From Meridianimaribacter flavus (GTDB lineage Bacteria > Bacteroidota > Bacteroidia > Flavobacteriales > Flavobacteriaceae): 64,000 nt of DNA. The notes below the pieces were generated by a model. The model searched no databases. It was given only the letters and a program-made list of their open reading frames with translations, and had not been told where the DNA came from. The stretch lies in NCBI RefSeq assembly GCF_004366715.1, contig NZ_SOQZ01000001.1:248001-312000 (forward strand). Direction: 5' to 3'. Of this stretch, positions 42,031 through 44,440 are shown one piece after another (positions within the stretch are counted from its first letter, which is position 1; every line of letters begins with the position of its first letter). The translations under genes and the position numbers were made by a program.

Positions 42031-43191
42031 TCAACCTCTAAACAAAAAGAAATCATCTTTCATGTCTTCAATTTGGGCATCTTCGTTTGTGATAATATAA
42101 TCAATTGCTTTTGAAGTAAATTCGTCGCCTTTTTCGGTAAGTGACACAATCTTATTGTCAATTTCAATCATATTGTTCTTTTGAGCCAAATCCAATACGG
42201 TTTTACTGCGCACTTTTTGCCAATTGATATGTTCGTTGAGGTGATTGACATGACGTTCTTCAATATCGTCATGGTTTTTTAAATGCAGTAAAAATGTAAG
42301 TAAAGACACTTCAATGCGTTGTTGTTTTTCTCGGTACATTACTGCTATTAAACCTTTACTTGGTGCAAACAAATACACGATTAAAAAAAGTAAACCTAGC
42401 ATAGTTGTTATTGAGCCCGCAATTGAGGCATCCAACCAATGCGCAAACCAATAGCCTGAAATAGCACTAAAGACGCCAAATATTATAGCGAGTAAGAGCA
42501 TTTTCTTTAAGTCGGTAGTTATTAAATAGGCAGCTGCAGCAGGTGCAATCATTAAAGCTACAACTAATATAGCACCAACAGCATCAAAAGCACCAACGGT
42601 AGTTACCGAAGACACAGTCATTAGTCCATAATGAATTAACGCTGGAGAAAACCCGAGTGAAGCTGCTAATCCAGCATCAAAGGTGCTTATTTTTAGTTCT
42701 TTAAAAAAAGCAAAAAGTAACCCTAAGGTAATAAGTAGAATAGCGCCAATAATCCATAACGATTTTGGACCAACATCAGTTCCTGCAATAAAAAGTCTGT
42801 CAAAAGGCGCAAAAGCCAATTCGCCCAAAAGTACAGCATCTACATCCAAATGTACATCGTTGGCATTTTTAGCAATCATAATCACACCAATACTAAACAA
42901 TGCAGGAAATACCAATCCAATAGCAGTATCTTCTTTTACCAAGCCTGTTTTTTGAATGTGCTCTACCAAAACCACTGTAATAATTCCTGTGATGGCTGCT
43001 AATAAAATAAGCAATGGCGAGTTGAGGTCTTGCGTTATGAAAAATCCAATTACAATTCCTGGTAAAATAGAATGACTGATAGCATCGCTAATCATTGCCA
43101 TTTTTCGAAGCACTAAAAACGTTCCTGGAATGGCGCAAGCCACAGCAACCAAACTGGCAATGAGCTGTATTTCAATTTGAGCGCTATTCAT
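42031..43191 (-). CDS. Metal ABC transporter permease (Mn/Zn/Fe type), second subunit
   Basis: 386 residues. Eight or so membrane helices of the ZnuB/MntC family fill the first 270 residues (VLRKMAMISDAISHSILPGI, VLGELAFAPFDRLF and a GAILVVALMIAPAAAAYL helix). A cytoplasmic tail of about 110 residues follows, with an LLTFLLHLKNHDDIEERHVNHLNEHINW segment and a later VSLTEKGDEFTSKA, which resembles a winged helix of the DtxR type. I start at ATG 43191; an in-frame ATG at 43233 would overlap the upstream permease by 50 bases. Overlap with that gene is eight bases. Confidence 0.88.
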   Translation of the reverse strand: MNSAQIEIQLIASLVAVACAIPGTFLVLRKMAMISDAISHSILPGIVIGFFITQDLNSPLLILLAAITGIITVVLVEHIQKTGLVKEDTAIGLVFPALFSIGVIMIAKNANDVHLDVDAVLLGELAFAPFDRLFIAGTDVGPKSLWIIGAILLITLGLLFAFFKELKISTFDAGLAASLGFSPALIHYGLMTVSSVTTVGAFDAVGAILVVALMIAPAAAAYLITTDLKKMLLLAIIFGVFSAISGYWFAHWLDASIAGSITTMLGLLFLIVYLFAPSKGLIAVMYREKQQRIEVSLLTFLLHLKNHDDIEERHVNHLNEHINWQKVRSKTVLDLAQKNNMIEIDNKIVSLTEKGDEFTSKAIDYIITNEDAQIEDMKDDFFLFRG

Positions 43192-44218
43192 CGGTCTTGT
43201 GTTGTTGGTTATACAGGTTAGCAGCTTTTTCAAAACCTTTTTGGGTTAAACTCCACATCGTGCCATCAATGGTGACATAGTCTTTATCAACCAGTTTTTG
43301 CAAGGTTTTACGTGTAAACCCTTGGAAGTTATTTAAGATTTTAATGGTATGAGGATGCGAAATATCTTCATGGGTTTCAGCGATATGGTACATAAAGGCT
43401 AGGGTTTTTTGCTGTTCCAAATCGCGTCTATTGGCAATAAATCGGATTTGTCGAAATAGTAATCCTCTGCTTGGAGAAAAGATAAAAGACACAACAACAA
43501 ACACTGATGCTACAATAACAATAACAGGACCAGTAGATAGGTTGTTCTGACTTGCGCTAATGGCAGTACCAAACACTCCTGAAAAGGCGCCAAAAATAGC
43601 AGCTAAAAGCACCATCTTACTCAAGCTATTGGTCCATTGTCTTGCAGCAGCAGCAGGTGCTAATAACATAGCACTCATTAAAACCACACCTACAGTTTGT
43701 AAGCCTAAAACAATAGCTAAAACAATAAAACTCGTAATTAGGATGTCAATGGTTTTGGTGTTGAAACCTAATGTTTTTGCATAGTCTTTATCAAACAATA
43801 ATATTTTGAATTCCTTCCAAAAGAGAAAAAGCACCAATAAGCACAGTCCAGTCACGATAGCCATTAACCACACATCACTTTCCACTAAGGTTGCCGCTTG
43901 ACCAAACAGGTATTTGTCTAATCCAGCTTGATTGGCATTGGGTTGTTTTTGAATAAAGGTGAGCAATAACATTCCAAAACCAAAGAACAAGGACAAAATC
44001 AAGCCCAAAGCAGTATCCGATTTTAAATGTGTTTTGGTAATGATGCCTCTAATCCAGAACGTGCCAAGTAACCCACTTACTAAAGCACCTAACAAGAGCG
44101 TATTGCTGTCTTTTGCTCCAGTAATTAAAAAAGCGATTGCAATTCCAGGTAAGGCAGCGTGGGAAATAGCATCTCCAAGTAAACTTTGTTTTCGGAGTAC
44201 AGCAAAACTACCCAACAT
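43184..44218 (-). CDS. Metal ABC transporter permease (Mn/Zn/Fe type), first subunit; start uncertain
   Basis: 344 residues from the first in-frame ATG (MLGSFAVLRKQSLLGDAISH), with the ZnuB-type helices and a soluble winged-helix-like tail (TRKTLQKLVDKDYVTIDG, WSLTQKGFEKAA). The reading frame continues upstream without a stop to 44339 and encodes a family-typical N-terminus (DYTLRTITLGTAILGAVTG, first helix), yet has no ATG, GTG or TTG there; only ATC (44315-44317), ATA and ATT codons could serve. Either a rare start codon is used, the protein is truncated, or a mutation removed the start. It lies 132 bases after the ATPase gene stop, separated by a REP-like element. Confidence 0.8.
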   Translation of the reverse strand: MLGSFAVLRKQSLLGDAISHAALPGIAIAFLITGAKDSNTLLLGALVSGLLGTFWIRGIITKTHLKSDTALGLILSLFFGFGMLLLTFIQKQPNANQAGLDKYLFGQAATLVESDVWLMAIVTGLCLLVLFLFWKEFKILLFDKDYAKTLGFNTKTIDILITSFIVLAIVLGLQTVGVVLMSAMLLAPAAAARQWTNSLSKMVLLAAIFGAFSGVFGTAISASQNNLSTGPVIVIVASVFVVVSFIFSPSRGLLFRQIRFIANRRDLEQQKTLAFMYHIAETHEDISHPHTIKILNNFQGFTRKTLQKLVDKDYVTIDGTMWSLTQKGFEKAANLYNQQHKTDE

Positions 44219-44357
44219 ACCAGTAACAGCACCAAGAATTGCGGTTCCAAGTGTGATGGTTCTTAAGGTGTAATCGTTAATTACGAGTTCTATGTATTCT
44301 AGAAAGTCTATTGGGATTTTGTTGTTAGAGGTTAGACATTAGTTTTTGTTTTTTTTC

Positions 44358-44440
44358 ATTCCGCAATATCACACTGAGCTTGTCAAAGTGTTGATGCGGA
44401 ATCCATTAATTTTAGACCCTGAATCAAGTTCAGGATGACA
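44358..44440. repeat. REP-like intergenic palindromic element
   Basis: Two hairpins. Outer arms ATTCCGCA (44358-44365) and TGCGGAAT (44395-44402) enclose CACTGAGCTTGTCAAAGTG. A second hairpin, CCTGAA-TCAAG-TTCAGG (44418-44434), is followed by ATGACA. I recognise the wording (CACTGAGCTTGTC..., CCTGAATCAAGTTCAGG) as a type of repeated intergenic element common in Bacteroidota genomes. It sits within the metal-transport operon. Confidence 0.75.

Follow-up and report, generated by a model that had tools for sequence, protein, structure and literature searches.

Where does translation begin in the first permease gene of a metal ABC transporter operon from Meridianimaribacter flavus whose reading frame offers no ordinary start codon ahead of its first membrane helix? 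The operon occupies the minus strand of the 64,000-nucleotide stretch analysed here (the window), in the order binding protein (46093-45185), ATPase (45185-44451), first permease and second permease (43191-42031), the last opening on a normal ATG and overlapping the end of the first permease. The first permease is a member of the ABC-3 family (PF00950): Pfam aligns residues 14-278, numbered from the AUA proposed below, at an E value of 2e-74 and 250.7 bits against a curated cut-off of 20.1, and the ATPase and binding-protein genes adjoin. Its frame is open from 44338 to 43184 and is closed upstream by an in-frame TAA (44341-44339). As a sequence-only reading of this DNA had reported, DYTLRTITLGTAILGAVTG reads in frame upstream of an ATG at 44218, no in-frame ATG, GTG or TTG lies between the TAA and that ATG, and an ATG at 44359 runs through six codons (MKKNKN) into the same TAA. 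This mini-ORF (44359-44339) overlaps, as TAATG, a second one, MSNL* (ATG TCT AAC CTC TAA, 44339-44325), which is out of the permease frame. Between ATPase and permease lies a REP-like palindromic stretch (44440-44357) that ends at about 44357, and the same reading had proposed that its insertion replaced the original start, leaving a rare start codon, a truncated protein or a lesion.

The codon that aligns with the ATG or GTG of relatives is an ATA at 44311-44309 (minus strand), 139 nt after the ATPase stop. To place it in context, we collected 80 Flavobacteriaceae loci by a genome-contig scan and added those from a family survey of 149 genomes, 59 of which held a close match. Before counting we dropped L081 and L082, which come from the window's own genome, and L083-L088, L096 and L102, which were judged duplicates by junction text and by distances equal to those of named loci, not by whole sequences. 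This left 131 distinct loci, window included; an order-level search (196 genomes, seven matches including the window's own) was kept out of the counts, and its G124 was already among them. At the ATG column the 131 loci read ATG 83 times, ATA 22, ATC 13, GTG six, TTG once and GTC once, with five rows shifted. Non-AUG codons (ATA, ATC or GTC) therefore stand at the column in 36 of 131 loci, window included. ATT occurs only in L135, a shifted row whose ATG is the preceding codon, and L055, the GTC locus, has an ATC one codon upstream.

Thirty of the 36 non-AUG loci, the window among them, contain no canonical start from the column back to the preceding in-frame stop (for example TAA AAT ACT ATA in L012 and TAA CGA CCT ATA in L036); six have a possible canonical start further upstream. 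In 24 of the 36 there is also none before the internal methionine. An initial flag for loci lacking a start had raised 25, of which L061 and L077 proved to be misplaced anchors, with TTG and ATG there. Neighbouring genes served as controls, and none lacked a start upstream of residue 20 (ATPase 0/81, second permease 0/81, binding protein 0/79). Many related marine bacteria carry AUA or AUC in place of their relatives' AUG, and the non-AUG permease start therefore seems to be a genuine weak start that evolved repeatedly, not damage. On this comparison the window permease very probably starts at the AUA at 44311-44309 and is 375 residues long (375 codons plus stop, 44311-43184).

Coding selection begins at the same place. 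Summed pairwise over the 36 non-AUG loci, pN/pS takes values of 0.86 and 0.93 for the twelve codons that precede the column, against 0.17 over codons 1-30 and 0.04-0.08 beyond them; the corresponding values in canonical loci are 0.96 and 1.13, 0.19, and 0.05-0.10. Amino-acid conservation switches on exactly at the proposed start column, so that a near-cognate codon aligned to the relatives' AUG coincides with the onset of selection. Residue 11 of the solved manganese permease 7kyp pairs with residue 12 of the window permease. Comparison of the loci thus shows where the N terminus lies and that the non-AUG codon recurs there. An AlphaFold model built from a 13-row alignment had a mean pLDDT of 42.5 and was set aside.

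These data also bear on the other places at which translation might begin. The ATG at 44218-44216 is the first canonical start in frame, and methionine occupies its position in 36 of 36 non-AUG loci; initiation there would yield a permease of 344 residues that lacks the leading half of the first membrane helix, inside which this codon, residue 32, lies. A Met32 start would therefore discard conserved, selected sequence, given that the preceding 30 codons evolve under protein-level selection in the non-AUG loci (pN/pS 0.17) and that both ABC-3 and the manganese permease align upstream of it. Relatives do not begin at the equivalent of 44218, which would have spoken for this start; they start 31 codons further upstream, and we regard the internal ATG as an improbable start. 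A neighbouring near-cognate is another candidate, either the ATC at 44317, two codons upstream of the ATA, or the ATA of codon 6, which is present in 35 of 36 non-AUG loci. Against these, codons 1-5 are conserved as protein, U, a disfavoured base, sits at -3 of codon 6 in 36 of 36, and only the ATG-aligned column looks start-like across the set, all of which makes use of such a neighbour quite unlikely. Ribosomes could instead enter from an upstream ATG, by readthrough of the UAA that ends MKKNKN* or by a frameshift from MSNL*, both of which lie directly upstream. Yet L036 and L012 have no comparable mini-ORF, upstream ORFs in relatives use any of the three frames and stop at -13 to 25 nt, and codons before the column show no selection; entry of this kind is very unlikely.

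Damage to the gene, by the REP-like repeat or through a sequencing error that removed the start, would be suggested by the palindrome within 50 nt of the candidate codon. Set against it, 35 other independent assemblies are non-AUG behind unrelated DNA, and the rest of the gene is intact. Nor does it resemble a pseudogene: the frame is open, the sequence is 93% identical to L001, and pN/pS is low in the set. We consider damage extremely unlikely. The proposal that the REP-like insertion displaced the start is further weakened by L001, which has ATC behind an intact gene, and by the association of REP-like ends with ATG and GTG. Of the three outcomes that the earlier reading had offered, comparison supports the rare start codon well, but not the truncated protein or the lesion.

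REP-like ends lie within 25 nt of the start in 33 of 60 canonical loci scored as 'apart', a set that omits 30 loci whose ATPase and permease genes overlap or lie no more than 3 nt from each other, versus two of 36 non-AUG loci, where we judged that the pattern had matched by chance within a coding gene. Two further copies of the window's REP-like core, with at most three mismatches, occur in the genome. The window's nearest neighbour on the tree is L001 (Subsaxibacter; SH-aLRT 91), where an intact four-helix-bundle gene ending SSNL* (TCT AAC CTC TAA) stops 12 nt before an ATC. The window retains these last four codons as the end of MSNL*, whose stop lies 13 nt before the ATA. We infer that the non-AUG start is probably older than the REP-like stretch, which would now occupy the place of the lost gene's body.

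What precedes the permease differs widely among relatives. Thirty canonical loci have an ATPase stop that overlaps the permease ATG or is no more than 3 nt from it, and in most non-AUG loci other DNA separates the two genes. At least six dissimilar gene types occupy the junction in different genera (L001, L006, L020, L027, L050, L055, L073 and others), including a four-helix-bundle gene of the 23S rRNA-IVP family, one gene that by eye looks VOC-like (with a weak 4HPPD match) and another that by eye looks isochorismatase-like, two small genes of membrane-like character that match nothing in Pfam, and a gene of 400-540 codons. The ATPase-permease junction of this metal transporter operon thus looks like a hot spot of gene swapping. 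A four-helix-bundle subfamily (at least 73% identity) occurs in seven of 149 genomes, each time adjoining this permease and nowhere else at that identity, and the gene is often framed by TTAGTGG/CCACTAA heptamers. As a side observation, arrays of TTAGTGG and CCACTAA/CCTCTAA around it in L001, L006, L076 and L080 resemble element ends. Flavo-1 small RNA matches also lie near the operon in two relatives (L076:1443-1516 and L035:6140-6236).

We compared how closely upstream ORFs approach the start. In 24 of 36 non-AUG loci the end of an ORF of 60 or more codons falls in the interval from 25 nt upstream of the permease start to 15 nt past it, versus six of the 60 canonical 'apart' loci (Fisher 1e-8; five shifted-start rows, L125, L134, L135, L137 and L139, omitted). 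For ORFs of any length the counts are 31/36 and 25/60. A phylogeny-aware version of this test was weak, with 12 independent pairs giving a median p of 0.04 (range 0.001-0.29). Twelve of the 36 non-AUG loci, window included, have no long ORF ending nearby, and the sole upstream remnant near the window start is the four-codon mini-ORF MSNL*. Within Winogradskyella, L027, L051 and L070 have their ATA 5 nt after the end of a VOC-like gene; in L037, L041, L042 and L045, where a REP-like stretch sets that gene and the permease start 101-103 nt apart, the start is GTG. Counter-cases are L032, which keeps ATA at 69 nt, and L093, which has ATG at 20 nt despite an inserted gene. Taken from sequence comparison, this pattern suggests weak initiation and, tentatively and with somewhat less than even confidence, its frequent coupling to upstream termination. 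Separately, L002, L003, L005 and similar loci carry a short direct repeat around an overlapping TAATG, in which the ATPase C terminus reads SIQE* and the permease N terminus MDIQEY or MDLQEY.

The bases before the column fit the initiation context of Flavobacterium johnsoniae, a member of a phylum without Shine-Dalgarno sequences, in which positions -3, -6, -12 and -13 are determinants of initiation (PMC6847099). Over the 36 non-AUG loci, A is found at -13 in 31, at -12 in 27, at -6 in 22 and at -3 in 24, over a background A frequency of 0.43, and U is found at -3 in none. This fit supports an AUA start but does not prove it, because much of the A at -14/-13 belongs to the TAA stops of upstream genes. 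Counting against the AUA-start reading, isoleucine codons near the beginning of genes tend towards ATA in any case (25 of 66 in the window). Four loci were folded, and they gave no consistent hairpin at the start.

Just inside the gene, codons 4-6 (GAATACATA, 44299-44291 in the window) are nearly invariant as DNA. Where residue 6 is isoleucine they nearly always read GAA TAC ATA, and ATA encodes that isoleucine in all 35 non-AUG and all 40 canonical loci concerned; elsewhere in the gene, the same loci use ATA for 507 of 2,324 isoleucine codons. The codons flanking GAATACATA vary normally. A preference for ATA and TAC is seen among early codons in the window, though it is less strong than in codons 4-6, and the 15-mer holding GAATACATA occurs once in the window genome.

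The non-AUG state has changed often. A tree of the three transporter proteins requires 27 changes, at least 17 of them forced by well-supported branches; among single-gene DNA trees, that of the first permease gives 26 changes (10 forced) and that of the ATPase 25. With repeated changes on all trees, a single origin is not supported. A single element causing the non-AUG codon was likewise rejected, since at least six dissimilar gene types precede the start. So was excision of an intron or mobile element that would restore an ATG: the spacer ranges from 6 nt (L012) to more than 500 nt with unrelated content, and Rfam found no introns in the eight loci searched. In nine of 11 comparisons between a non-AUG locus and a near ATG relative, the first twelve codons are 39-67% identical and the following sequence 73-85%; L012/L009 and L073/L103 show no such drop. 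From these nine drops, the first dozen codons seem to travel with the junction, which may reflect either horizontal exchange or local change that happened repeatedly.

A mechanism can be proposed on these grounds. The AUA at 44311-44309 would be read by initiator tRNA as (formyl)methionine, giving the full-length 375-residue membrane subunit. Initiation there would be inefficient, presumably aided by the A-rich bases ahead of the start, a context on which Flavobacterium ribosomes rely in place of Shine-Dalgarno pairing. In many relatives the start may be supplied by ribosomes fresh from termination at a gene whose stop lies a few bases upstream; the window's copy of that gene would have decayed to MSNL*, 13 nt before the AUA, and delivery of ribosomes by this remnant is a guess. 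A weak start would set the permease below the ATPase or tie it to initiation-factor levels. A bolder scenario, which we think unlikely as a whole, holds that unrelated genes are repeatedly swapped into the junction, that each time the start becomes AUA or AUC and is held by selection as a weak start fed by the new neighbour's ribosomes, that GAATACATA takes part as a nine-base downstream element, and that later separation by a repeat returns the start to AUG or GUG.

Known systems resemble parts of this picture. In Staphylococcus aureus, AUA and AUU starts work at about 10% of AUG in poor medium, and infC, ccpN, cvfC1 and citZ have natural AUA or AUU starts that, as here, are weaker than AUG, some of them conserved across species (PMC13009471). 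Unlike the permease, whose lineage does not use Shine-Dalgarno pairing, infC, ccpN and cvfC1 have extended Shine-Dalgarno motifs (PMC13009471), and the present case concerns a metal permease whose state changes many times within one family. Termination-reinitiation in Escherichia coli likewise involves a start a few bases from an upstream stop, is sensitive to IF3 and can use non-AUG codons with a mutant initiator tRNA (PMC2268962); here, reinitiation is suggested by gene layout only. The Kozak-like, non-Shine-Dalgarno initiation of F. johnsoniae favours A at -3, -6, -12 and -13, as in our loci, and the accessible text of that study has no match for 'non-AUG' and none for 'coupling' (PMC6847099). 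The literature searched yielded no recurrent AUA/AUC start in a lineage that does not use Shine-Dalgarno pairing, and none of the titles and abstracts listed for AUA/ATA or other non-AUG starts in Bacteroidetes, Flavobacterium or bacteria at large named the permease family.

If the AUA-start reading is correct, annotation restricted to ATG, GTG and TTG would misplace the start of this permease, and cut a membrane helix, in roughly one in four of the loci sampled. The family would then be a natural, many-times-replicated experiment on non-AUG start choice by ribosomes that work without Shine-Dalgarno signals, and a test of whether the weakness of a start codon can be made good by coupling to an upstream stop.

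The manganese permease 7kyp and ABC-3 belong to the same family and share the N-terminal register of the window permease; the window protein differs from them by about 90 extra C-terminal residues. In both permeases of the operon some 80-90 such residues (43460-43184 and 42350-42031, minus strand) look winged-helix-like by eye.
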